This document shows, piece after piece, positions 1-12,778 of a DNA stretch of 64,000 nucleotides. The notes below the pieces were generated by a model, which was given only the letters and a program-made list of their open reading frames with translations, did not search any database and was not told the origin of the DNA. Every line of letters starts with the position of its first letter. Within the stretch, counting starts at the first letter, position 1. The translations under genes and the position numbers were made by a program. This DNA comes from Bdellovibrionales bacterium. GTDB taxonomy: Bacteria; Bdellovibrionota; UBA1018. The stretch is taken from positions 124,001 through 188,000 of the forward strand of contig JAEUWC010000020.1 of NCBI GenBank assembly GCA_016786465.1, read 5' to 3'.

Positions 1-684
1 GCGGAAATGAATTCGGTTTGCGAACGGTATCCCGGAAAAATGGCCGCCGTGATGATTGAACTGGTTCAGGGTGAAGGGGGATTCAATTTTGCTCCACGCG
101 AATGGTACGTGGGGCTTTTTGAAAACGCCAAGAAGCACGGTCTAGCGATTTGGGCCGACGAAATTCAAACCTTTGCCCGTACCGGAGAACTTTTCGCATT
201 CGAGAAGTTTGACCTTGGAAATTACATCGACGTTGCGACTGTCGCCAAAGCGCTTCAAGCCAGTGCAGTGCTTTTTCGTCCCGAATACAACCCGCGCGCC
301 GGGCTTATCGCGGGAACCTTTACGGGAAGCATCACGGCACTTCGATCGGGCCGTCGCGTTTTGGAAATGCTGACCCAGGACGGTTATCTTGGAGAAAACG
401 GAAAGATTCAGAAGCTTTCGCGTGTCTTTGAATCCAAGCTGCGATCACTTCAGGAAAGAAAAAAGATTTCCGAAGTTCGCGTGATTGGATCGATGATTGC
501 GTTTCAACCGGGGCAAGGGACCATGGATCAGGTTAAGGCCTTGCTATTTAAACTGTATGAACGCGGGGTGGTCGCTTTTTACTGCGGCCATGATCCGTAT
601 CTGGTTCGGATGCTTCCTCCGTTTGGAGTCATGACCGAAGACCAGGTTCATCAAGTCTGCTCAATCGTGGAAGAGTGCCTATGA
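1..684 (+). CDS. Class III PLP aminotransferase (ArgD/AstC type), 5' end outside window
   Basis: C-terminal part of a fold-type I aminotransferase of the acetylornithine/succinylornithine family; the frame is open to base 1, so the start lies upstream. Visible family motifs are IELVQGEGG, the cofactor-binding WADEIQ with ARTG after it, the PLP-lysine segment VAKALQ, and GTFTGS in place of the usual GxTYGGNP. The PLP lysine and the aspartate that contacts the pyridine nitrogen are both present, so the enzyme looks active. The stop codon overlaps the next start (ATGA), followed by ArgE-like, AstA and AstD-like genes, which makes succinylornithine or acetylornithine the likely substrate. Family is secure; substrate is inferred from neighbours. 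Confidence 0.85.
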   Translation, partial: AEMNSVCERYPGKMAAVMIELVQGEGGFNFAPREWYVGLFENAKKHGLAIWADEIQTFARTGELFAFEKFDLGNYIDVATVAKALQASAVLFRPEYNPRAGLIAGTFTGSITALRSGRRVLEMLTQDGYLGENGKIQKLSRVFESKLRSLQERKKISEVRVIGSMIAFQPGQGTMDQVKALLFKLYERGVVAFYCGHDPYLVRMLPPFGVMTEDQVHQVCSIVEECL

Positions 685-2162
685 AACACCTGTTAGAAGA
701 CGCCAAAAGGTTAGTTCGCCTGAATTCAACCGCGAAGCACGGCAACGAAGAATTAGCCAATTTAATTCATGGAATGCTTCAAGATCGTGGAATCAAAAGT
801 CAGCTTCAGCTGGTCACGCATTCGCTGGAAGATGTTTCAAAGCGGCAATTCAACGTCATCGGCGTTTTGGGCGATCCACTGGTGGATCGGAAAATCCGCA
901 AGGGCCTTTTGCTGCTTAGCCACCTGGACACATTTCCGGCCGGCCTTTCAGAAAACTGGACCGAAACCGGGGGCGATCCTTTTGCTTTGACCGTGAAAGA
1001 CGGAAAAGTCTTTGGTCTTGGAACCGCTAGCGCGAAACTGGATTTTCTTTGCAAACTTCGCGTGATGGAAAAGTTTCGCGAAAAGAAGCTGAAAATGCCG
1101 ATTTACTTGGTGGGTACTTGCGGTCGCGAAGTGGGGATGCTGGGATCCCGCTACTTGATCAAGTCCTTAAGTCTGAACCCCAAGTATGTGATCGTCGGAG
1201 AACCGACGGATAACCGAATCATTCACGCCCACAAGTCACAGCTGATCTATCGGGTCAGTATCGGCTTCCACCAAGTGGAACGCGATTCAAAAGGTTTCAA
1301 TCGCCGCATTGACCTGCATTCTTTTGGGCGATCCGTTTGTGGAAGTTCACCCGAAAAGGGTGTCAATGCGATCGATCAGATGTTGGATTTCCTGGGCCGT
1401 GGAATTCAAAATGGGTTTGAATTTCGATTCACGACAGTCGAAGGCGGAGAATCTCCTTCACAGGTGCCTGATCGGGCGTTGGGCGAGTTTTACATGACCA
1501 CCCAACAGTTTGAAAATTTCAAACGCTTCTTCCGTGAATCCATTCGAATGGCAGGGAAAGAAAAAGCTTTTCGAGTCGAACTGGGCGGGCTTGGCGATTC
1601 GGGAATTCGATTCATTCCCGATTCCGTCTTTCGTGCAGTACTTGAAGTGCAAAGTTTCTTCAAAAAGACAGCGGAAGTCCTGGCGACGCGACACGACCCT
1701 AGTTTTGATCCCGGAATCAGCACCGTGAACTTAAGCCGAATCGAACCCTTTACTTCAGCGATTCAAATGACTTTCGATGTTCGGCTTTTGCCTGCGCAGG
1801 TTCAGTCCGAAGTACTTGCCCAAATCGAAGCAGGCGTTCAACAGATTGCTTCAAAGTATCCGTCGTTGAACATTCGCGGTACCTTGGACAAAAAAGTTTC
1901 GTCGCTCAGTCTTCCGTCTGAAAGTCAGTGGGTTCAAATCTGCCAAGAATCGTTGAAGGGTGCTGAAATTCCGCCGGTTATGAGCAAAAAATCAACGGCT
2001 TCAGAAGCCGCACTATTTCAAGAAGCCGGCTACGACGCGGTTTCGTTTGGTCCCGGAAGTTCGCAATCGGTTGCGGGTTCCCCCAATGAACACGGTCTTT
2101 TGACCCAAATCGAAAAGGCAGTTGCCTTCTATTCGGAACTGATCGAGCGCACCTGCCTATGA
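681..2162 (+). CDS. M20 (ArgE/DapE-like) metallopeptidase homologue, active site degenerate
   Basis: A 493-residue relative of acetylornithine deacetylase. The start is taken as the ATG in an ATGA overlap with the aminotransferase stop, with GGAAGAG upstream, rather than the GTG two codons earlier. SHLDT (H81, D83), YGLGT-like FGLGT, GEPT (E174) and GVNAI show the fold. Aligned by eye to ArgE, the bridging aspartate of GTADMK is serine (S117), the base glutamate of DEE is arginine (GRE 148-150), the lid-domain GHSS histidine is absent, and the C-terminal ligand histidine (AHxPDE) is glycine (G466, in AGSPNE). Two-metal hydrolysis therefore looks impossible. It may be a structural or regulatory partner in the AST-like operon, or may use another chemistry. 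Confidence 0.8.
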   Translation: MKHLLEDAKRLVRLNSTAKHGNEELANLIHGMLQDRGIKSQLQLVTHSLEDVSKRQFNVIGVLGDPLVDRKIRKGLLLLSHLDTFPAGLSENWTETGGDPFALTVKDGKVFGLGTASAKLDFLCKLRVMEKFREKKLKMPIYLVGTCGREVGMLGSRYLIKSLSLNPKYVIVGEPTDNRIIHAHKSQLIYRVSIGFHQVERDSKGFNRRIDLHSFGRSVCGSSPEKGVNAIDQMLDFLGRGIQNGFEFRFTTVEGGESPSQVPDRALGEFYMTTQQFENFKRFFRESIRMAGKEKAFRVELGGLGDSGIRFIPDSVFRAVLEVQSFFKKTAEVLATRHDPSFDPGISTVNLSRIEPFTSAIQMTFDVRLLPAQVQSEVLAQIEAGVQQIASKYPSLNIRGTLDKKVSSLSLPSESQWVQICQESLKGAEIPPVMSKKSTASEAALFQEAGYDAVSFGPGSSQSVAGSPNEHGLLTQIEKAVAFYSELIERTCL

Positions 2163-3235
2163 TCCTTCTTCGCGAAGCCCGGGCTCGCGACCTGGATGCA
2201 TTCGAAAGGCTGGGTCAGATTCCCGGAATGTTGAACCTTTCGGGTGATCGCGACCAGATTTCACTGCGCCTTGAAAGGGCCGAAAAGTCGTTTCGCGGAA
2301 AAATTTCAAAGAAGGCGAACAGAAAATACATCTTTGTTGCAGAAGATCTTGAAACTAAGAAAGTCGTCGGAACTTCCCTGATCGCGCCCCAGCACGGCAC
2401 CCCGGAATCACCCCACTTTTACTTTGAAGTTGGAAGCGAACAGCGCTTTTCGCAAACGATCGGCACGGGTTTTATCCACGGGACTTTAGAACTGAAGTTC
2501 AATACCGATGGGCCTACCGAAATCGGCGGGTTGGCGGTTGACCTTGCTTCTAGAAACCATCCGGCGCGTGTGGGTCGGCAAATCAGCTTTGTACGATTTC
2601 TTTTCGCCGGGATTCACCGAACTTTTTTTAAGAATCAGGTCCTGGCTGAACTTCTTCCACCTCTGAATAAGAAGGGTCAGTCTCCGCTCTGGGAAGCTGT
2701 GGGAAGACGGTTTACCAATATGGATTATTTGGAAGCGGATCTTCTTTGTTCCAAGAACAAGGAATTTATTCTGTCACTTTTTCCGTCAGAAAAGATTTAC
2801 ACCACCTTTCTTCCCGCGGAAGCCCGAAACGCGATTGGCAAAGTCGGCAAGGATACCGAACCCGTGTTTCACATGCTCAAGAAGATCGGGTTTCGGTACG
2901 CCCATCACGTGGATCCGTTTGATGGGGGCCCGCACCTGATTGCCGACTTTGATCAAATCGCGCCCATTCAGGGGATTCGGAAAATTTCGCTCGACCTAAA
3001 GACATTCGATACAGCGGGTCCAATTGTGGCTTCTGGTTTGATCTGCCCGCAACCGGCTGCCAGGAATCCCCAAGAATTTAGGGCTATTCACGTCGACTTG
3101 GTGGGCAGTGATTCGTCCGGGTACAGAATTCACGCACTTCAGGGTGGGGCGTCCGACCTGAGCCAGGTGAAGGATCAGCTCGGTCTGTCGCACGGATCAA
3201 CCGTTTGCTTTATGCCGTATTATTCTGCGTCTTAA
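2159..3235 (+). CDS. astA: Arginine/ornithine N-succinyltransferase family protein
   Basis: A 358-residue protein of the AstA/AruF family, which transfers succinyl from succinyl-CoA to arginine as the first step of the AST catabolic pathway. The GNAT-like N-terminus (REARARDLDAFERL), the IGGLAVDLASR segment, RSPFWEAxGR-like SPLWEAVGRRF, and the C-terminal VDPFDGGPHLIAD match the family along its length. ATGA overlap with the preceding gene and 10 bp to the next shows tight translational coupling. AstB (succinylarginine dihydrolase) and a recognisable AstE are not in the window and may lie upstream. Because the flanking M20 and AstD-like products look inactive, the true acceptor should not be assumed to be arginine. 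Confidence 0.82.
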   Translation: MILLREARARDLDAFERLGQIPGMLNLSGDRDQISLRLERAEKSFRGKISKKANRKYIFVAEDLETKKVVGTSLIAPQHGTPESPHFYFEVGSEQRFSQTIGTGFIHGTLELKFNTDGPTEIGGLAVDLASRNHPARVGRQISFVRFLFAGIHRTFFKNQVLAELLPPLNKKGQSPLWEAVGRRFTNMDYLEADLLCSKNKEFILSLFPSEKIYTTFLPAEARNAIGKVGKDTEPVFHMLKKIGFRYAHHVDPFDGGPHLIADFDQIAPIQGIRKISLDLKTFDTAGPIVASGLICPQPAARNPQEFRAIHVDLVGSDSSGYRIHALQGGASDLSQVKDQLGLSHGSTVCFMPYYSAS

Positions 3236-3245
3236 GGGAGGGAAA

Positions 3246-4667
3246 ATGAATCTAGATCAGTTTCAGTTTCGTGGGTGCCTGATTGCCGGAAAGTTCGTTT
3301 TGCCGTCACAGCCCAATGGTTCCTGGAGTGTGCAGAATCCTTCTTTCCCCAATCGGCCTGGACCCAAGATCACCTACGAGTTCGGGCTGATTCCCGAAGC
3401 AGTTCGAGCGGCGCGAAGTGCCCAGCCCGGATGGGAAAAGACATCGCTTTCGGAAAGACTGAACTGGCTGAAAAAGTGGCAGAGTATCTTGGTCGAAAAA
3501 AAATCTGTCTTGGTTTCGGCGCTCATGGTGGAAACCGGAAAGCCTGCATGGGACGCGGAACTGGAACTTGACCGGTCGATCCAGCTTCTTTCACAGATTC
3601 CGATCAAGTTGGCTTCAACCGCGACGGGCGCACCGCTGGGTGTGCTGGCCGCAGTCACAGCATCGACCGAAGCATTGGAATCGGTGGTTTCGTTTCTTGC
3701 ATCGGCGCTCGTTACTGGAAATGCGGTGGTTCACAAGGCTTCTGAAAAAACCGTCATTCTAGCCCAGGTTATTGCCGAATCGATTTTGGAATCAGGTCTT
3801 CCGTCGGGTGTATGGAACCTGCTTCAGGGTGATCGTGAAACCGGAAGACGGCTTTGCGTCCACGAAAATATCGACGGGATCCTTTTCACGGGATCCTATG
3901 ATGTCTCGATCCGGATCAAACAGGATACCCTTCAGCAGCACTGGAAAAAGCTGATGCTTTATACGGGCGGCAAGAACACGATCCTTGCCTGGAAGGGCGC
4001 GGATCTGGAAAAAGCCGTCGAATGGACCATCGAATCCGCTTTTTCTTTCTGTGGCCAAGGAGCGTTTTCCGCATCAAGGGTGATCGTTCATGAAAGTATC
4101 GCTCAAGAATTTTTAGAAAAACTGCACCAGGCATCAAAAGCATTTCGAATTGGTCCTGCCGACGCTAATCCCTTCATGGGACCGATGATGGACCACGGAT
4201 CGGTCGACCGGTACATGAAGTTCTTAGGGGTTGCAGTTCGTGAAGGCGCCGAATTGGTCATGCGGGGTAAGGCCCTTGAGCTGGGAAAAGAGGGGGGCTT
4301 TTACGTCGCTCCATCCATCGCGTATTTGAAGGACAATTCGATTGAAGCGACGCGGAAGTCGATTTTTCAGCAGTCCGAAATGACATCGCCTTTCGTGACG
4401 TTGATTGAATCCGATGATCAGGATCACGCCATAGCGCTTGCGAATGCCACCCAGTTTGGTCTTTGTGCATCGCTTTTCAGTGACCCCATTGAAATGGAAA
4501 AGTGGGATCGCGAACTGGATTTTGGATTGATCCTAAAGAATCAGGCGACCACGCGTAGGAAAGGCACTGAAAGCGTGATTGGTCGGAAAAAAAGCGGAAA
4601 CCATCGCAAGGCGGGTCTGGGGCTATTGGAAGAATGTTGTTGGCCCGTAAGCGAATCAGGCGCCTGA
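3246..4667 (+). CDS. AstD-like aldehyde dehydrogenase homologue lacking catalytic residues
   Basis: A 473-residue aldehyde dehydrogenase superfamily member, closest to succinylglutamate-semialdehyde dehydrogenase: the C-terminal SGNHRK...CCWPV stretch is AstD-like. The start has a strong AAGGGAGGG Shine-Dalgarno. The NAD-binding lysine is kept (VVHKASE, K164). The three residues needed for chemistry are not: the oxyanion-hole asparagine of the YNFPGHL region is T141 (TASTEAL), the general-base glutamate of ELGG is Y239 (YTGGK), and the nucleophile of GQRCTC is A273 (GQGAFS). The frame is otherwise intact with no decay, so it seems to be a maintained pseudoenzyme, perhaps a scaffold or acyl-group binder. 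A bidirectional terminator follows. Confidence 0.82.
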   Translation: MNLDQFQFRGCLIAGKFVLPSQPNGSWSVQNPSFPNRPGPKITYEFGLIPEAVRAARSAQPGWEKTSLSERLNWLKKWQSILVEKKSVLVSALMVETGKPAWDAELELDRSIQLLSQIPIKLASTATGAPLGVLAAVTASTEALESVVSFLASALVTGNAVVHKASEKTVILAQVIAESILESGLPSGVWNLLQGDRETGRRLCVHENIDGILFTGSYDVSIRIKQDTLQQHWKKLMLYTGGKNTILAWKGADLEKAVEWTIESAFSFCGQGAFSASRVIVHESIAQEFLEKLHQASKAFRIGPADANPFMGPMMDHGSVDRYMKFLGVAVREGAELVMRGKALELGKEGGFYVAPSIAYLKDNSIEATRKSIFQQSEMTSPFVTLIESDDQDHAIALANATQFGLCASLFSDPIEMEKWDRELDFGLILKNQATTRRKGTESVIGRKKSGNHRKAGLGLLEECCWPVSESGA

Positions 4668-5194: not shown

Positions 5195-6907
5195 TTACAT
5201 GACGAACTGGGGTCCGCCGTTGGTCAACGGAACCGTGGTGTTGATTCCGTAGTTACCACCGCTCCAAAGTGCTGATGGAGTCGTTGACGGATTGTAGAAC
5301 GATTGACCTTGAGCCTGGGTTGGTCTCCAGCCGCTGTTGAAAGTCACAGCACCTGGGTTCTGGGGGCCATTGTTGGTAAACATTGGGCTTTGTCCATAGC
5401 CGCCGCCGAAGTCCAAGCCGCCACCGAAATCCATTCCGCCGCCCATGTTCATCATGTAGCCGCCTTGCAATTCACGCCATTCTTCCAAGCGACGATTGTA
5501 TTCTTCGATCTGGCGCTGCTGACGAACGTACTGAGCTTGTTGCGGGATCTTGTAGCGAACGGTCTGAATCGCTTGCTTCGCCGTCATGCAAGCTTCCAAG
5601 CTTCCGGTCTTGCTGTTGCAGCTGTCCTTGCGCAAGTCCTGAAGGCGATCCAACACTTCGTTACGCTTTTCGCGGTAAACCGAGCGGTCTGATACACCGT
5701 CGGACGCAATCGCAAGAAGTTCGTTCATTTGAATTTCAGTGATGTTGTTTTCGAAGCGAAGTTTGTTTGCATCGCTGACACCATCAAATCCTTGCGCTTG
5801 GCGAATTGTTTCGATCGACTTGGCATAGGCGTCGTTGCCCAGTGCTTTGTCTTTCTGGTACTGCTGCGCAATTTTTTGGAAAACCACTGCGAAATCGTTG
5901 CCGGTCAAGCCTTCTGGCGACTTCATGCGAAGTTCTTCTAGTTCTTCGCGTAGAGCATCCAGTTCTCCGGAATCCATATCGTTAATTTTCTTGGCGTATG
6001 CCGCCAAAAGGTCTTTGTGGGCCTTCTTGACTTCTTCTTCAAGGTTTCCTTTGAATTCGTTCAAGTCTTTCAGAATGGTCAAGGCTTCCAAAGCAACTTT
6101 CATTTCGTCGACGTTCTTACGGCATTCCTTGAATTGCTTATTCAAGGCTTTGACGTAGTTTTCGTGATCGCGGGTTTCAATAATCTTGCTTCCGACGTGG
6201 ACGATTTCGCCACGGCCAGGAATATCGTGGAACCGAGCCGCGTTGGCAGGTTGAGCAGGATCAACTGATTCGATTCCCAGGTTGATCAATGCGTTTTCGT
6301 TCAAAGAAATCAGGTTTCCTTCGCGAGCCGCATCGTTCAATTGGCTATAGGTTTCCGTCCCGAAGCTGCAAGCTTGGGTCACGTTCAAATTAGCGCCGCA
6401 AGCCGCGATCTTGTCCTTTTGTTCCTTCACGCAGGCCAAGCCACCGCCAAGGTCGACCACGCGAACGCCGTGGTAGGCCTTACCGTTGGTTCCGGTTCCA
6501 GGGGAAGTCGATTGAACCAATTTGAATTTTGCGTCGCAAGCTTTGAAAGAAACGCCGTAAACGCGGTAATTGTTTCCTTCGCGAACCAGATCGAAACCCT
6601 TGAAGGTATCGACCACTTCGGCTGCAGTTAAGTCGCGCGAAACCGTGCTCACACCATAAAGGCGATCGTAGGTGGCTTTGTGGCGGGCCAACTTTGGATA
6701 GTCGACATCCAATCGAGCCTTCGCGTCTTTACATTCTTTGGTTTTGGCATTGCCGCACTTTGCGACCGTCTTTTCGTCGCGTGCGATTCGCCATTCGGCG
6801 TTTCCGATCCAGGACTTCAGATCGGCTTCACTGGGTTGCGTCTGAGCGAGTGCGGACATCGGAAAAGCCGCTGCTACGATCAAGAAAACAAGTTGGTTCT
6901 TTGCCAT
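5195..6907 (-). CDS. Secreted coiled-coil protein of unknown function
   Basis: I do not recognise this 570-residue protein. The start chosen is MAKNQLVFLI, with GAGGAG six bases upstream, which gives a clear signal peptide ending ALAQ; an upstream in-frame ATG would bury it. Residues about 20-250 carry scattered cysteines (KCGNAK, KECKD, KACDAK, AACGAN, QACSF) that could form disulfides in the periplasm. About 270-480 is charged and helical, probably coiled coil (EELEELR, EEYNRRLEEW). The last about 90 residues are low complexity, rich in Gly, Met, Asn and Tyr (MGGGMDFGGG). It stands alone, with its own terminator and a sigma-54-like promoter. An envelope or surface structural role is conceivable, but nothing shows it. 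Confidence 0.8.
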   Translation of the reverse strand: MAKNQLVFLIVAAAFPMSALAQTQPSEADLKSWIGNAEWRIARDEKTVAKCGNAKTKECKDAKARLDVDYPKLARHKATYDRLYGVSTVSRDLTAAEVVDTFKGFDLVREGNNYRVYGVSFKACDAKFKLVQSTSPGTGTNGKAYHGVRVVDLGGGLACVKEQKDKIAACGANLNVTQACSFGTETYSQLNDAAREGNLISLNENALINLGIESVDPAQPANAARFHDIPGRGEIVHVGSKIIETRDHENYVKALNKQFKECRKNVDEMKVALEALTILKDLNEFKGNLEEEVKKAHKDLLAAYAKKINDMDSGELDALREELEELRMKSPEGLTGNDFAVVFQKIAQQYQKDKALGNDAYAKSIETIRQAQGFDGVSDANKLRFENNITEIQMNELLAIASDGVSDRSVYREKRNEVLDRLQDLRKDSCNSKTGSLEACMTAKQAIQTVRYKIPQQAQYVRQQRQIEEYNRRLEEWRELQGGYMMNMGGGMDFGGGLDFGGGYGQSPMFTNNGPQNPGAVTFNSGWRPTQAQGQSFYNPSTTPSALWSGGNYGINTTVPLTNGGPQFVM

Positions 6908-6948
6908 AAAATACTCCTCGGTCTTTGAATCTCTCTTCACCCCAATAG

Positions 6949-6964
6949 AGCAAGCGGTGGGCCA
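6949..6964 (-). promoter_or_regulatory. Sigma-54 (-24/-12) type promoter
   Basis: On the minus strand TGGCCCACCGCTTGCT matches the consensus TGGCAYRNNNNTTGCW at all fixed positions but one, with the GG and GC spaced correctly. The predicted transcript start is about 30 bases before the ATG at 6907. If real, the secreted protein would need an RpoN activator. Confidence 0.45.
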
Positions 6965-7116
6965 GCCCCCTAAGCTCGGTCAAATCCAATAAAAACAAAT
7001 AGTTATGCATCATCGCGAGCGTGCCTGCCTGTTTTCCAGACAGCCATGTGTCCAAGACTTAGACAGCTTGCTTCGCCCCTTTTGGGCTGCTACGACCGTG
7101 AAACCGCAGGATTTTT

Positions 7117-8160
7117 ATGAACTCTTTTCGCCCAGCAGACCCGTTTGGCCTGACCCGCGTGATTGAACCCAAAGGGGTACTTCCGCAGCAGGCTCAATCG
7201 ATTGATCCGACGCTGCCCCTTGCCGAGGATGAACTTCAGATTTCCGTCGAAAGCCTGAATATTGATTCAGCAAGCTTTCATCAGATTTCGAAAGCCTGTG
7301 ATGGAAACCTGGATGCGATCGAAAAGCACATCCTGAATTTGGTGAAGACCCGGGGTAAGCAGCACAATCCGGTCACGGGGTCGGGCGGTATGCTGATTGG
7401 AACGGTCGAAAAGATCGGACCCAAGTTTCCCATTCAGACCAAGCCGGTTTCAGTTGGCGATCGGATCGCGACCTTGGTTTCTCTTTCGTTGACCCCGCTT
7501 TTGATTGAAAAGATTACCGCCATTCACCCCAAGATCGATCGCGTGGATGTAAAGGCCAAAGCGATCTTGTTCGCCTCTGGGCTTTTTGCACGACTGCCCA
7601 AAGACCTTCCCGAAACGGTTTCGCTGGCAGTCTTGGATGTCGCAGGCGCGCCTGCGCAGACACGGCAGCTGGTTCAGCCCGGAAATACGGTTTTGATCAT
7701 TGGGGGCGGAGGAAAATCCGGTTTGCTGTGCGCTTACGAAGCTAAGAAAAAGCCAGGAACGCGGGTTTTGGCCATAGAATATTCGGCAGCCGCAGTAGAA
7801 AGAACCAAGGGGCTGCCATTTTTTGATGACGTCATTCAAGCCGACGCGCGAAATGCGGTCGAAGTCATGCAAAAAGTTTCGGCTGCAACGGGCGGCCGAA
7901 TGGCCGATCTGGTGATCAACGTTGCAAACGTTCCCGAAACGGAAATGGCCAGCATCCTGGCCTGCCGTGCAAAAGGGATCGTCTACTTTTTCAGCATGGC
8001 TACCCATTTTACGCGCGCGGCCCTGGGTGCCGAAGGCGTAGGGGCGGATATCGATTTAAGAATTGGCAACGGATACACCGAAGGCCACGCGGACTTGGCG
8101 CTTTCGTTGATTCGCGAAAGCAAAGAACTTCAGAAGATTTTCACCGAAACGTATTGCTAA
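7117..8160 (+). CDS. kdd: L-erythro-3,5-diaminohexanoate dehydrogenase
   Basis: A 347-residue NAD(P)-dependent dehydrogenase that oxidises 3,5-diaminohexanoate to 5-amino-3-oxohexanoate in lysine fermentation. The N-terminal RVIEPKGVLPQQA, the GTRGKQHNPVTGSGGMLIG-like stretch, and a Rossmann glycine motif (IIGGGGKSG) fit Kdd, and the length is typical. It opens an operon with kamD (10 bp gap) and kamE, the enzymes that make its substrate. The other pathway genes (kamA, kce, kal) are not in the window. The 209-base upstream gap to the divergent secreted-protein gene should hold its promoter, but no clear sigma-70 site is visible. Confident call. Confidence 0.92.
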   Translation: MNSFRPADPFGLTRVIEPKGVLPQQAQSIDPTLPLAEDELQISVESLNIDSASFHQISKACDGNLDAIEKHILNLVKTRGKQHNPVTGSGGMLIGTVEKIGPKFPIQTKPVSVGDRIATLVSLSLTPLLIEKITAIHPKIDRVDVKAKAILFASGLFARLPKDLPETVSLAVLDVAGAPAQTRQLVQPGNTVLIIGGGGKSGLLCAYEAKKKPGTRVLAIEYSAAAVERTKGLPFFDDVIQADARNAVEVMQKVSAATGGRMADLVINVANVPETEMASILACRAKGIVYFFSMATHFTRAALGAEGVGADIDLRIGNGYTEGHADLALSLIRESKELQKIFTETYC

Positions 8161-8170
8161 GGGGAATTCC

Positions 8171-9739
8171 ATGGCCAGCCTGACATCCATCAAGAAGGAA
8201 GACGTCGCTCACTGCCGGAAAATGGCGCAGGACATTTCGAAACCGGTCGAAGAAATGATTCATTCGCACACCACCGTTGCGATCGAACGGGCGACCCTGC
8301 GCCTTTTGGGCGTCAATGGCGCCATCCAGCGTGGAGGTCAATGGTACCCTGAAGCCAATGCCATCATCGATGCCCTTCACAAAGAAAAGGCCCTAGGAAA
8401 AGGTGTTTTGCATTGGTTTGTGAATGGCATGATTCAAAAAAAGATGCCGGCGCGAGAACTTGGGGCGCTGGTTGCGTCGGGAAAAATCGATCTGACAAAA
8501 CTTCCGCGCGCACCCGAAGCAGAAGTCGCCGCGAAAGCAAAACAGCTTTGTATTCAAGCCAAGGATTTTCTTCTATCGCAACGTGAATTTCGGGACGGAA
8601 TTCGTCGGGAAACAAATGACCCATTTGATCCGGAAGGCAAGAACGGACCTTTGCTTTATGTCATTGTCGCCACCGGAAATATTTACGACGACGTGATTCA
8701 GGCCAAGGCGGCAGCTCAAGCGGGCGCGGATGCGATTGCCGTGATTCGAAGCACCGCCCAGTCTCTTTTGGATTACGTCCCACACGGGGCGACGACCGAA
8801 GGATTCGGCGGGACCTACGCTACTCAAGAAAATTTTCGCATCATGCGCGAAGCGCTGGATGAAGAAAGCAAGAAGCTGGGACGTTACATTCGCCTGACGA
8901 ACTATTGTTCCGGTCTTTGCATGCCGGAAATCGCGGCACTGGGCGCGATGGAACGGCTGGATTTCCTTTTGAACGACGCGATGTACGGGATTCTTTTCCG
9001 TGACATCAATATGAAGCGCACGCTGATCGATCAGCATTTTTCCAGACGAATTATCGCGGTTTCCAGGATTGTCATTCACACCGGTGAAGACAACTACCTG
9101 ACCACGGCGGATGCGATTGAAAACGGGCATCAGGTATTGGCTTCACAGTTCATCAACGAACGTTTTGCGCTTAACGCAAAGATGACGGAAGACCTGATGG
9201 GTCTGGGGCATGCGCAAGAAATGAATCCTGAACACCCCAACGTGTTTCTGCTGGAAATCGCGCGCGCGCAAATGACCCGCGATATTTTTCCAAAAGCCCC
9301 GATTAAGTTCATGCCCCCGACGCGCCACAAGTGCGGGGACATCTTTTACAGTCACCTGATGGACGCTATGTTTAATTTCGTAGGTGTTTTGACCGGGCAG
9401 ACCATTCAGCTTTTGGGAATGGCGACGGAAGCCATGCATACTCCACTTTTACAAGACCGCTGGATGAGCATTAAGAACGCAAAATACATCTTCAACGGAG
9501 CGAAAGACCTGGGTCGCGACATCACCTATCGACCCGGGGGCCAGATTGAAGCCTGGGGTGCAAAAGTCATGAAGGACACTGTGGATCATCTAGAAATGAT
9601 CCACAAAAAGGGCATGTTCAAGGCGATTGAAGAACGCGCCTTTGCCGAAGTTTCGCGCACGGAAAAAGGCGGAAAGGGCTTTGATGGTGTTATGCTTCGC
9701 GATCCGGCCTACTTGAACCCATTCTTCGAGATTTTATGA
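8171..9739 (+). CDS. kamD: Lysine 5,6-aminomutase alpha subunit
   Basis: A 522-residue catalytic subunit of the adenosylcobalamin- and PLP-dependent lysine 5,6-aminomutase, which moves the terminal amino group of beta-lysine (or D-lysine) to carbon 5. TEGFGGTYATQENF, TNYCSGLCMPE, and ITYRPGGQIEAWG are family signatures and the length matches characterised enzymes. The start ATG follows AAGGGG. It overlaps kamE by ATGA, so the subunits are translationally coupled in the expected 1:1 manner. This type of mutase is inactivated by substrate-induced damage to the cofactor and usually depends on a reactivating factor; the genes downstream may supply one. Confidence 0.95.
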   Translation: MASLTSIKKEDVAHCRKMAQDISKPVEEMIHSHTTVAIERATLRLLGVNGAIQRGGQWYPEANAIIDALHKEKALGKGVLHWFVNGMIQKKMPARELGALVASGKIDLTKLPRAPEAEVAAKAKQLCIQAKDFLLSQREFRDGIRRETNDPFDPEGKNGPLLYVIVATGNIYDDVIQAKAAAQAGADAIAVIRSTAQSLLDYVPHGATTEGFGGTYATQENFRIMREALDEESKKLGRYIRLTNYCSGLCMPEIAALGAMERLDFLLNDAMYGILFRDINMKRTLIDQHFSRRIIAVSRIVIHTGEDNYLTTADAIENGHQVLASQFINERFALNAKMTEDLMGLGHAQEMNPEHPNVFLLEIARAQMTRDIFPKAPIKFMPPTRHKCGDIFYSHLMDAMFNFVGVLTGQTIQLLGMATEAMHTPLLQDRWMSIKNAKYIFNGAKDLGRDITYRPGGQIEAWGAKVMKDTVDHLEMIHKKGMFKAIEERAFAEVSRTEKGGKGFDGVMLRDPAYLNPFFEIL

Positions 9740-10617
9740 ATCAACCCGGACCAAAACAAGTCAACCTAAAGAAGCTGAAGCCTTACGGCGACATCATGGA
9801 CGATGGAACGATCCAGATCTGTTTCACGCTTCCCGTCGAACCATCCCCTGAAGCGAAAGAAGCCGCGATTCGATTTTGCGAAAAAATGGGGTTGGACCAA
9901 ATCAAGGTCGCGACCATGGAGAAGGCGGCCGATGGCTTTGCCCTTTTTGTGATCTACGCCAATTTGCGCGTTACCGTTGATTTTACAGAAATCAAAGTGG
10001 TGAAGATCGAATCCAAAAAGCGTTCACGCGAAGAAATCGACGAAATCATCAAAGAAAAGATCGGTCGAAAGCTAGTCGTCTTGGGGGCGTGCACGGGATA
10101 CGACGCTCATACGGTCGGAATCGACGCGATCATGAATATGAAGGGGTTTGCGGGCGATTACGGCCTGGAACGTTATCAATGGTTGGATGCTCGGAATTTG
10201 GGTGCTCAGGTTTTGAACGAAGACCTTCTTCAGTTAGCGCTTCGTGAAAAGGCAGACGCCGTTTTGATTTCAAAAGTCGTTACCCAGCACAACATTCATG
10301 TGAAGGACCTGAAGGACTTTGTTCGTCGCGCAGACCAGTTGGGTGTGAAGGATCGACTGATTTTGGTGGCGGGTGGCCCCAGGGTGACCCACCCGATGGC
10401 CTTGGAATGTGGATTCGACGCTGGATTCGGTGTTGGAACCAAGCCTTCGGACGTCGCCAGCTACATTGTCGAAGAATTTTTGAAACGCCGCGATCAGCAG
10501 GCAGCGGAAACTGGTGAAAAGAAGGTTTCTCAAGTAAGCTTGAAAGCAAAAGCTAAACGCAAAAATGCCAAAAAACCAAAAGCCAAAGCAAAAACCAGCG
10601 CCAAGAAAAGGAAGTAA
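9736..10617 (+). CDS. kamE: Lysine 5,6-aminomutase beta subunit with B12 domain and Lys-rich tail
   Basis: The 293-residue beta subunit carries the cobalamin-binding Rossmann domain. The base-off motif DAHTVG gives the cobalt ligand H125 and G128, and K136 in NMKG is the lysine that forms the PLP aldimine in the known structure. GGPRVTH and FGVGTKPSDVA end the conserved part near residue 250. Beyond that is a tail of about 40 residues rich in Lys and Ala (AKAKRKNAKK), longer than usual for the family. The DNA of this tail also encodes the N-terminus of the next gene in another frame (53-bp overlap). Function is secure; the tail's role is unknown. Confidence 0.94.
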   Translation: MNQPGPKQVNLKKLKPYGDIMDDGTIQICFTLPVEPSPEAKEAAIRFCEKMGLDQIKVATMEKAADGFALFVIYANLRVTVDFTEIKVVKIESKKRSREEIDEIIKEKIGRKLVVLGACTGYDAHTVGIDAIMNMKGFAGDYGLERYQWLDARNLGAQVLNEDLLQLALREKADAVLISKVVTQHNIHVKDLKDFVRRADQLGVKDRLILVAGGPRVTHPMALECGFDAGFGVGTKPSDVASYIVEEFLKRRDQQAAETGEKKVSQVSLKAKAKRKNAKKPKAKAKTSAKKRK

Positions 10618-11497
10618 GACTTCCTTCGTCGGTCGCGCGAACGAAAAGGAACAGATTCTGGCTTGCCTTCAAGCGGGAAGAAACGTCCTTTTGGAAGGGC
10701 CCGTGGGCGCCGGAAAAACCACTTTGGCGCTTTCGGTGGTTCAAGAATTGGGGCGCCCTAGTTTTCGAATCGATGGCGACAATCGATTTAATGAACAAAA
10801 ACTGACCGGGCTTTTTGACCCTCCCGCGGTTTTAAAAAAGGGTTATCAGTGGTCGACCTTCTTAGCGGGTCCCCTGGTTGAAGCCATGCAAAAGGGCGGG
10901 GTCCTTTTCATCAACGAATTGAACCGTCTTCCCGAAGGCGTTCAAAACGTCCTATTGCCCGCGATTGATGAAAAGAAAATCGTGATTCCAAGGCTTGGAG
11001 AAATCACCGCGCGTGAGGGGTTCACCGTCGTTGCGACCCAGAATCCAAAAGAATTCGTCGCGACGTCACATTTAAGTGAAGCGATCCTGGATCGCTTCGA
11101 ATTGGTGGTGATCGATTACCAGTCAGAAGCCGAAGAAAAGCAGATCGTTGCCGGTGCGCTGGAAGCTTTAGACCTACCGCCGGATAGCGGTTTAGTTCAG
11201 GCTTCGGTCACTTTGGCGCGATTAACGCGTGGGCATCCGCAGATTCGCCGTGGCGCTTCGGTTCGCGCGGCACTTGCAGTGGCTGAAATCGCTGCCGTTT
11301 TGAAAAAAACTGGTAAACCCCTGGCAGAAGCTTTCACTACAGCCGCCGTTTTGGCGCTTCCGACCCGAATTGAAATGGAACGCGACGCCGAAGCCGAAGG
11401 CGGTGAAGGCGCGAACCTAAAGAAGCTGATTTCAGAACTGACCGAAAAAGCACTTGCGGGTTCGGGTTCGGGTTCGGGCGAAAAAAAAAAGATCTAG
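10565..11497 (+). CDS. MoxR-family AAA+ ATPase in lysine aminomutase operon
   Basis: A 310-residue AAA+ ATPase of the MoxR class. Walker A is GPVGAGKT (45-52); the Walker B is VLFINE (113-118), with Asn where Asp is common; TQNP is sensor 1-like. MoxR ATPases work with VWA proteins to remodel or metal-load enzymes (known pairs: CbbQ/CbbO, NorQ/NorD, RavA/ViaA, CobS/CobT). It starts inside kamE and has no Shine-Dalgarno of its own, so it is probably coupled to kamE. The C-terminus is a (GS)n linker and EKKK just before a TAG. The VWA partner follows in the -1 frame past a slippery A tract. Likely job, by inference: reactivation of KamDE. Confidence 0.88.
   Translation: MPKNQKPKQKPAPRKGSKTSFVGRANEKEQILACLQAGRNVLLEGPVGAGKTTLALSVVQELGRPSFRIDGDNRFNEQKLTGLFDPPAVLKKGYQWSTFLAGPLVEAMQKGGVLFINELNRLPEGVQNVLLPAIDEKKIVIPRLGEITAREGFTVVATQNPKEFVATSHLSEAILDRFELVVIDYQSEAEEKQIVAGALEALDLPPDSGLVQASVTLARLTRGHPQIRRGASVRAALAVAEIAAVLKKTGKPLAEAFTTAAVLALPTRIEMERDAEAEGGEGANLKKLISELTEKALAGSGSGSGEKKKI
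11485..11491 (+). promoter_or_regulatory. Putative -1 frameshift site, heptamer A AAA AAG
   Basis: In the MoxR frame the codons run GAA AAA AAA AAG ATC TAG, giving the canonical slippery heptamer A AAA AAG inside an A10 run (11481-11490), 3 bases before the MoxR stop. A small GC stem (CGCC 11498-11501 with GGCG 11508-11511) begins 6 bases downstream. A -1 slip enters a frame open to the end of the VWA gene and yields a fusion of about 657 residues. RNA polymerase slippage adding one A, or a miscounted homopolymer, would give the same product. Confidence 0.6.
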
Positions 11498-11646
11498 CGC
11501 CTGAAGGGGCGGCACCACAGGACCTAAAGAAAGCGCCGACCAGCGGCATTCGTGAACGCTTTCGAAGTCTTTTTTCCGGTAAAGATTCGCAAAAGAACAC
11601 CAGCACCGTTTTTCTTCCGCCTGAAGCTTTTCAGTCGGGCGCAGAA

Positions 11647-12537
11647 ATGGCGGACGAAGAACAAGGTTTTGATCTGGCTTCCGCCAGCAGCTGGGACGTA
11701 GCGACCCGCTATCACGATTTTAAGTCCAGGCCCGGATTCGCCCATTTGACCAAGCAATTGCGCCAGATTTCAGCGCACGCAGTACTAAAGCGCGCGGAAG
11801 CGGTTCTGGGGTCTGTGGTCCACCCTGTTCTTCAAGGATCGGGAACCTTGGATGCGATTCCCAAGGACGCCACGCAAGTTGAAATCGATTTGGATGAAAC
11901 CCTTCAAAATTCAATTCTTGGATTTCGAAATGCGGACCGGTCGGGGTTTTCTACGCGCGATATCTATGTGGAATTTTCGACCCCAAGAAAAAAGCCCCTG
12001 ATTCTGACCGTCGATACCAGCCTTTCAATGACTGGCGAAAAGCTTGCGATCACGGCCGTTGCCCTTGCCGTCGTCCTTTTGCAGTTTCCCGAAGACCCAC
12101 TTGGGATCATCGCATTTGAAAACGTGGCGCGCGTTCTTAAGCGTCCGGATGAAGTGATTTCAGTGGCTGAATTGGTGGAAAGATTCTTAGACGTACCTGC
12201 GCAAGGTTACACGCACCTGGAAGACGGGATGCGAGGGGCCCTGAAGCTGATGCAGAAGTCGGGGCGCAGGTCGGGTCAGGGAATGCCGCGAAATATTTCA
12301 ACTGTATTGGTTACGGATGGCAAGTACACGGCTGGGCGCGATCCGGCCTATTTGGCGCCCCGTTTTCCACACTTGGTGGTCATGAAGATGGGGCGCGAGA
12401 AAGCCAGCTTACAGCTTTGTCGCGATTTGGCGCGACTGGGACGGGGTTCGCTGCGTCAGGTGCCTGAACTTGAAGCGCTGCCGGCGGTCATGTACGGGGT
12501 CGTTAAGGATATTCTGCGGGGTAGGGCTCAGACTTGA
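11647..12537 (+). CDS. VWA-domain protein, partner of MoxR; probably made as a fusion
   Basis: From the first ATG this is 296 residues ending in a von Willebrand A domain with a full MIDAS: DTSLSM (D123, S125, S127), the threonine of GYTHLEDG, and VTDG. The ATG has no convincing Shine-Dalgarno. The frame is open upstream to 11407 with normal codon use and no ATG, GTG or TTG start in between, so the real N-terminus most likely comes from a -1 shift out of the MoxR gene at 11485-11491. That would give a MoxR-linker-VWA polypeptide alongside free MoxR. VWA partners recruit the target enzyme through MIDAS-bound metal; here KamDE is the obvious candidate. Confidence 0.85.
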   Translation: MADEEQGFDLASASSWDVATRYHDFKSRPGFAHLTKQLRQISAHAVLKRAEAVLGSVVHPVLQGSGTLDAIPKDATQVEIDLDETLQNSILGFRNADRSGFSTRDIYVEFSTPRKKPLILTVDTSLSMTGEKLAITAVALAVVLLQFPEDPLGIIAFENVARVLKRPDEVISVAELVERFLDVPAQGYTHLEDGMRGALKLMQKSGRRSGQGMPRNISTVLVTDGKYTAGRDPAYLAPRFPHLVVMKMGREKASLQLCRDLARLGRGSLRQVPELEALPAVMYGVVKDILRGRAQT

Positions 12538-12576: not shown

Positions 12577-12765
12577 ATGAGAGACGATTATAAGATGAAA
12601 ACCGCGACCCAAAAGGTCAGCGTCGAAGTCGAACAAGAAGTGGCCAAGCTTTTGGCCTCGATGGAAAAATATTCTAAAATTTCGCAGTCCGAATTGGCAA
12701 ATACGGCGTTGAAGCGCTTCATTTCCCAGCACAAAGACTTCTTGCCGCCAGAAGACCGCAAGTAA
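12577..12765 (+). CDS. Small protein, possible ribbon-helix-helix
   Basis: A 62-residue protein of unknown function. AGGATGGG lies 7 bases before the ATG; a second ATG six codons on is also possible. The sequence TQKVSVEVEQEVAKLLASMEKYSKISQSELANTALKRFI has the pattern of a beta strand followed by two helices seen in CopG/Arc-type DNA-binding proteins, but no diagnostic residue settles it. It lies between the lysine operon and a convergent lipoprotein gene, with no toxin gene beside it. Coding status is likely from codon use and spacing. Confidence 0.6.
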   Translation: MRDDYKMKTATQKVSVEVEQEVAKLLASMEKYSKISQSELANTALKRFISQHKDFLPPEDRK

Positions 12766-12778
12766 GATCAGGCGCGAA

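Follow-up and report, generated by a model that had tools for sequence, protein, structure and literature searches.

What does a MoxR-type AAA+ ATPase with a VWA partner do at the end of an operon for lysine degradation? This question was raised by a locus at 7117-12537 of a 64,000-nucleotide (nt) stretch of a Bdellovibrionales bacterium genome (contig JAEUWC010000020.1, positions 124,001 to 188,000; the whole stretch is referred to below as the window), in which kdd and the genes for two subunits of the adenosylcobalamin (AdoCbl)-dependent lysine 5,6-aminomutase, kamD and kamE, precede open frames for MoxR and VWA. The original prediction had treated MoxR and VWA as two genes whose products service the cofactor of KamDE. 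Comparison with relatives indicated instead that they very probably form one recoded gene. This gene order occurs in bacteria related to Bdellovibrio, where MoxR-VWA probably helps to keep the B12 enzyme working. A gene that by slippage encodes both a motor and a motor-adaptor fusion, which would reactivate KamDE, is the best explanation of the locus as a whole and is, if only just, on the probable side.

Operon organization

All genes of the locus lie on the forward strand in the single run kdd-kamD-kamE-MoxR-VWA that had originally been read from the sequence. L-erythro-3,5-diaminohexanoate dehydrogenase (Kdd, 7117..8160; NF052381, 253 bits, cut-off 200) and the lysine 5,6-aminomutase subunits KamD (8171..9739; NF052384, 744 bits, cut-off 600; PF09043) and KamE (9736..10617; NF052385, 340 bits, cut-off 280; PF02310 and PF16554) of the window all scored above the NCBIfam equivalog cut-offs. 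The frame for the MoxR-type AAA+ motor (10565..11497; PF07728, 74.5 bits), zero-frame product of the presumed recoded gene, does start inside kamE, with an overlap of 53 nt; position 10565 is the sole start codon ahead of the conserved MoxR region. In many relatives, the overlap takes the four-base form ATGA. Spacings of 10, -4, and -53 nt along kdd-kamD-kamE-MoxR fit a single transcription unit. A terminator scan of the run returned one forward terminator-like site, within kamD, and fewer sites than in shuffled sequences, and a search of the window for a cobalamin riboswitch found none. The absence of a MutS gene from the locus, also part of the original prediction, extended to KamC and KamB, the latter being absent from the whole genome to which the window belongs.

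Linkage to lysine 5,6-aminomutase and exclusion with KamB

A survey for MoxR-VWA next to kamDE, proposed as a check when the locus was first described, was made in 290 genomes of the phylum. KamD-family matches were found in 57 of these and, after removal of an 18-bit partial match (G212), 56 kam genomes remained. In 41 of the 56, a MoxR-family gene followed kamD in the same orientation at a distance of 728-1050 bp, directly 3' of kamE. The remaining kam genomes carried it on another contig (two genomes) or lacked it (13 genomes: nine of family f15, one of f9, and three of f1). Contig edges cut off the kam genes of the three f1 genomes and of both split cases; for G072 this was deduced from its truncated match.

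All ten genomes of f9 and f15 had a KamB match, and the other 46 kam genomes had none. With the MoxR family present in 0/10 KamB-bearing and 43/46 KamB-less kam genomes, KamB and this MoxR thus do not co-occur (Fisher p 8e-9, which is overstated since the genomes are related). Counted over the KamB-less kam genomes, the gene is directly 3' of kamE in 41 of 46, and in the remaining five the kam locus runs up to a contig end. The f15 operons that were read contain genes matching KamB and KamC, named lysine 5,6-aminomutase reactivase by NCBIfam; because the KamC model picks up MutS as well and thus hits almost all genomes (284/290), only KamB was counted. Families f1 and f10 share the MoxR-kam linkage despite VWA parts of just ~25-30% identity, and the linkage stays while kdd and other neighbours change across distant families. 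This distribution supports, but does not prove, a replacement of KamBC by MoxR-VWA as aminomutase reactivase.

A multi-phylum sample of the best 80 of 581 relatives, which is not a full survey of other phyla, comprised 56 kam loci with KamB and/or KamC nearby, six with this MoxR-VWA, and 18 with none of them. The six all belong to the phylum discussed here and overlap the phylum sample. Of the 34 kam genomes behind the multi-phylum loci, only three matched the profile of this MoxR at an E-value of 1e-30 or below. Two of these three are Lokiarchaeal (L242 and L243) and have a MoxR relative (E 1e-81 to 1e-87) that adjoins a VWA gene. A MoxR gene beside kamE in L171 (Clostridium sp. CS001, 80 bits) was rejected as part of an unrelated MoxR/DUF58-type pair. 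The 18 loci without KamB, KamC, or MoxR nearby (L129, L135, L138, L146, L152, L153, L156, L158, L161, L169, L172, L173, L176, L183, L187, L189, L190, and L192) include some short contigs; others may use a different or distant helper.

Probable recoding at a conserved A-run

In the window, no stop codon interrupts the VWA frame as far back as 11407, a point 91 nt within MoxR, and the frame contains no ATG, GTG, or TTG upstream of 11647. It overlaps the MoxR 3' end across a run of ten A (A10, 11481..11490; the presumed slippage or frameshift site), just ahead of the MoxR stop codon. One added A in this run would merge the frames into a protein of ~657 amino acids; translation of VWA probably does not truly begin at 11647.

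Junctions were collected from 57 gene pairs of phylum relatives with both parts on one stretch. An A9 run was found in 27, A10 in 26, A11 in one, and A8 in one, while two had no run of at least seven. The VWA frame offset was 2 in 55 pairs, 1 in one pair (G081, the A8 case), and 0 in one pair. The latter is a natural in-frame MoxR-VWA fusion of 658 amino acids, a second copy in G143; this fusion and G134, whose junction (CGA AAA AAG ACC TGA) holds a plain A AAA AAG heptamer, are the two junctions without a long run. The count omits G194 and L113, a single contig with an NNN gap inside MoxR and A9 visible at the junction, as well as five genomes in which VWA was not found on the stretch (G175, G183, G206, G060 with A10, and G178 with A9) and two with no MoxR on the stretch (G180 and G197).

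As a control, runs of at least nine A within the last 60 nt were sought in other open frames of at least 250 amino acids (40 loci and the window) and occurred in 0/414. Moreover, AAA accounts for 57% of lysine codons in these genes (the loci are not independent), and a stretch of uninterrupted AAA codons at the same site in almost all genomes would not be expected from this. The A-run was missing from a MoxR pair of a different type within the same genome (L003).

The segment between the run and the folded VWA domain (11482..11646), predicted to be a disordered linker of low model confidence with an FLPPE motif, carries third-position bias in the VWA frame. Over 20 related, and thus not independent, pairs of sequences, linker differences were distributed 187/143/375 over the three VWA codon positions, with 7/3/25 in G002-G064 as an example. 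The Phe of FLPPE, kept in at least 90% of 46 alignment rows, lies 5' of the first possible VWA start of the window. As judged from these patterns, the linker is translated in the VWA frame. Furthermore, no ATG, GTG, or TTG precedes the conserved WDxA in the VWA frame in seven of the 43 pairs in which this motif was recognised (G070, G131, G172, G054, G105, G066, and G160); an eighth, G113, was taken off this list because of a false WDxA match.

The conserved A-run, the shared offset, the coding linker, and the start-less VWA pairs indicate that one gene should yield both MoxR and a MoxR-VWA fusion. This comparative sequence evidence makes it almost certain that a single recoded gene encodes MoxR and VWA, where the original prediction had seen a pair. 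In a tree with two Lokiarchaeal relatives, which superseded an earlier MoxR tree with outgroup branches of length 10, the 59 members of the phylum formed one supported clade, and recoding therefore probably arose once in the phylum.

Polymerase slippage or ribosomal frameshifting

The fusion is probably made by slippage of the polymerase rather than by a shift of the ribosome. Runs of at least nine A are kept at 54/57 junctions, although a plain heptamer would suffice for a ribosomal shift, and the codon position of the run varies between relatives. Upstream of the run, Shine-Dalgarno-like sites were found in 9/55 junctions versus a background of 15%, and downstream RNA structure showed no excess either (mean z 0.03). 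Bacterial polymerase slippage on runs of nine A is described in parts of PMC5009743. Long kept runs, varying codon position, and the lack of stimulators together favour polymerase slippage.

Ribosomal -1 frameshifting on A AAA AAG, a mechanism proposed for chlD in sections of PMC5009743 and PMC9227772, is a possible if less probable origin of the fusion. As this mechanism would predict, the majority of runs close with AAA AAG when read in the MoxR frame, and the G134 junction offers nothing beyond A AAA AAG, but the length of the runs, the several runs in other codon positions, and the background-level frequency of stimulatory signals all argue against it.

Structure, motifs, and family placement

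The MoxR model (pLDDT, a per-residue confidence measure, 92.4) had NorQ (9qh4, E 3e-19) and CbbQ (6l1q) as its best Foldseek matches, and the best PDB match of the sequence profile was Midasin (6or5). The motor has an AAA+ core with Walker A, sensor 1, and arginine finger region on a NorQ/CbbQ-like fold; GKT, QNP, DRxE, and RGxSxRA positions are invariant or nearly so in 47 rows. It departs from the canonical Asp-Glu Walker B motif, since Asn117-Glu118 occupies this position in 47/47 rows. Asp is the usual residue where this MoxR has Asn, which is also found in the two Lokiarchaeal relatives.

For the VWA/MIDAS domain (11647..12537; PF13519), the C-terminal part of the presumed fusion, the model (pLDDT 86.5, linker disordered) gave the Rea1 MIDAS domain (6qt8) as first match and NorD (9qhe) among the best, the rest of the list consisting of generic VWA domains. 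Generic VWA domains also dominated the VIA-align listing, which was not used for family placement. MIDAS is intact, with residues D178, S180, S182, T244, and D279 invariant in 46 rows. A feature of chlD type, a conserved shift-prone site in the overlap of the AAA+ and VWA frames, is present as well. One of the 46 VWA alignment rows also matches the transposase domain PF07592, probably due to an insertion after or within the VWA frame.

The best NCBIfam match of the motor was the gas-vesicle ATPase GvpN (TIGR02640), yet its score of 80.6 bits was far under the cut-off of 266.8 bits and this identity was rejected. The same applied to a chelatase (BchD-ChlD, 28.1 versus 499.55 bits; CobS, 18.7 versus 558.55 bits), and a defence system was discarded after PADLOC gave weak generic ATPase matches only. 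Neither MoxR nor VWA matched the KamB and KamC models.

Proposed role in aminomutase reactivation

Genome comparison shows the operon, the recoding site, the coding linker, the kam linkage, and the KamB exclusion, and the mechanism proposed here extends from these to function. MoxR-VWA would be a single gene at the end of the lysine-degradation operon, and slippage on its A9-A10 run would give two products, the AAA+ motor alone and the motor followed by a flexible linker and a MIDAS/VWA adaptor. Most subunits of the resulting mixed rings would be plain motors and one or few would be fused; such rings would handle KamDE in the way that NorQ/NorD and CbbQ/CbbO handle their clients, and ATP-driven opening of the aminomutase would let inactivated cobalamin be exchanged. 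With a slip rate well below one half, plain rings with few adaptors would predominate, and the A-run could thereby set the ratio. Stoichiometries of CbbQ6CbbO1 and of one NorD per NorQ hexamer appear in parts of PMC4660213 and PMC9976466, and a portion of PMC13036017 describes NorQ acting on the NorD linker to remodel the client.

Recombinant KamDE is active without helpers, yet undergoes suicide inactivation with formation of cob(III)alamin, according to parts of PMC3958899. This behaviour makes ATP-driven cofactor exchange the likeliest task, and position, KamB exclusion, and fold likewise point to reactivation. Service to the KamDE cofactor, as originally predicted, thus agrees with the kam linkage in 41/56 genomes, the KamB exclusion, and the folds of NorQ/NorD and CbbQ, which tend metal- or cofactor-dependent enzymes; as to its form, the present data fit equally well whether damaged cobalamin is removed or fresh cofactor is loaded.

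Several observations weigh against a dedicated aminomutase reactivase. KamB and KamC of f15 scored below curated cut-offs (105.5/210 and 127.6/300 bits, one representative each), and their reactivase role rests on NCBIfam names. Occurrence of the pair in relatives without a kam link, which the original prediction had named as evidence against itself, was encountered in part: 17 of the 234 kam-less genomes carry the MoxR family. Five of these (G054, G105, G152, G084, and G075) lack kamDE but keep the gene in the company of the flanking genes that it has in kam-bearing relatives. The other 12 are f2 genomes; in the seven f2 contexts that were read, permease genes (7/7) and a DUF455 gene (5/7) stand in place of kam. 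Second recoded or fused copies away from kam are present in G000, G038, and G143. It follows from the kam-less carriers that MoxR-VWA already serves, or is able to acquire, a second function.

Alternatively, the recoded AAA+/VWA chaperone could mainly serve a wider range of clients or a different one, be it another B12 enzyme or none, with its place next to kam simply inherited. This would account for the 17 kam-less carriers, for the f2 permease contexts and the paralogues away from kam, and for the other B12-binding proteins that kam-less carriers retain. It is nonetheless considered rather unlikely, in view of the KamB exclusion across 56 kam genomes and of a linkage that outlasts changes in kdd and neighbours over distant families. 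G054, G105, G152, and G075 nest in kam-bearing clades, so kam was probably lost and the gene retained. Branch lengths after this loss are mixed: G075 and G152 have the longest branches in their clades and G105 a longer one than its sisters, which argues against a different main client, but G054 does not, and the branch of kam-bearing G143 is about as long as that of G152.

The f2 loci L097, L098, L100, L101, L102, L103, and L107 contain two divergent amino-acid permeases and often DUF455, a context that may point to another client. In the genome of the window itself, G000:C13 (L106) carries at 6604-8414 a second MoxR-VWA pair with an A9 junction and no kam; the product of its neighbour is presumably metallophosphoesterase-like, by our own reading of the sequence.

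Less probable again is an assembly factor that loads AdoCbl or pyridoxal phosphate into new KamDE and is no reactivase. NorQ/NorD insert iron into new enzyme, as stated in a part of PMC13036017, which offers a precedent; the activity of KamDE without helpers combined with its suicide inactivation (PMC3958899, same parts), and the exclusion with a protein named as reactivase, argue for reactivation instead.

Possible separate initiation of the VWA part

The folded VWA domain of the window begins just past Met 11647, so that separate initiation is possible there. Many relatives likewise have a start codon near the folded domain, most have some start codon between run and domain, and the two Lokiarchaeal relatives show a plain two-gene form without an A-run. 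The start codons count against the recoded gene and, like the Lokiarchaeal form, would be expected of two separate proteins, with VWA starting independently and the A-run incidental. Such an arrangement is nevertheless very improbable given A9-A11 at 54/57 junctions, one offset at 55/57, a linker whose codon-position bias follows the VWA frame, seven pairs without a start, and one natural fusion.

A phase-variable switch or a sequencing error, suggested by the proneness of long A runs to error and mutation and by the A8 run with a different offset in G081, can practically be dismissed, since either would mix offsets that are split 55:1:1 and the offset holds while the run length changes.

Neighbouring genes

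Upstream of the operon, at 7-4667 of the window, a four-gene run encodes a class III aminotransferase, an M20 deacylase, an AstA-like N-succinyltransferase, and an aldehyde dehydrogenase. It resembles an arginine/ornithine catabolic operon of the succinyl type, with scores under curated cut-offs, and remains close to kam in several relatives. A frame of ~60 amino acids 3' of VWA (12578-12766) looks ribbon-helix-helix-like by eye only.

Comparison with known systems

If the proposed reactivase is real, it would explain how a lineage without KamBC maintains lysine 5,6-aminomutase although this enzyme inactivates its cofactor itself, and it would extend the MoxR/VWA machines to AdoCbl radical enzymes. 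The stoichiometry of AAA+ ring and adaptor would then be written in an A-run, and chlD would be joined by another recoded AAA+/VWA family. A plain list of open reading frames splits such a gene and assigns VWA a false start, and some genomes have no valid VWA start before the conserved domain. The matches listed in open-licence PMC literature included no report of recoded MoxR genes or of MoxR in association with kam.

Compared with KamB/KamC, MoxR-VWA has the same type of operon position and presumably the same task, and the two are mutually exclusive; KamC is MutS-like and KamB belongs to another family, and no similarity of either to MoxR-VWA was found. The proposed class would likewise be unrelated to the DdrA/DdrB, MeaB, and GlmL types of reactivase. 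Tentatively, and with somewhat less confidence than in the slippage-encoded reactivase as such, MoxR-VWA may be regarded as a class of AdoCbl-enzyme reactivase unrelated to KamB/KamC, in which RNA-polymerase slippage on A9-A10 would set the adaptor share of an AAA+ ring, so that motor and adaptor stand in a proportion similar to the 6:1 reported for CbbQ/CbbO and NorQ/NorD.

Midasin/Rea1 provided the best profile match of the motor and the best fold match of VWA and, like the presumed fusion, combines AAA+ and MIDAS in one chain. Midasin differs in that its single giant chain contains six AAA modules and its substrates are ribosome precursors. The motor and VWA folds of NorQ/NorD and CbbQ/CbbO are similar to those of MoxR-VWA, and in all of these the genes adjoin those of the known or presumed client enzyme. 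However, NorQ/NorD and CbbQ/CbbO are encoded by two genes, with a ratio of 6:1 given in parts of PMC4660213 and PMC9976466, whereas here one recoded gene is involved, with a short adaptor and a presumed B12 radical-enzyme client.

The nearest precedent for the recoded MoxR-VWA gene is chlD of Mg/Co chelatase. Its AAA+ and VWA parts are joined over an A-rich shift site, and frameshifting between them is proposed, in the relevant parts of PMC9227772 and PMC5009743, to give short and long products that serve as two chelatase subunits. Unlike chlD, MoxR-VWA belongs to another AAA+ family, lies outside any chelatase context, and combines longer A runs with junctions at which no stimulatory structure was found.

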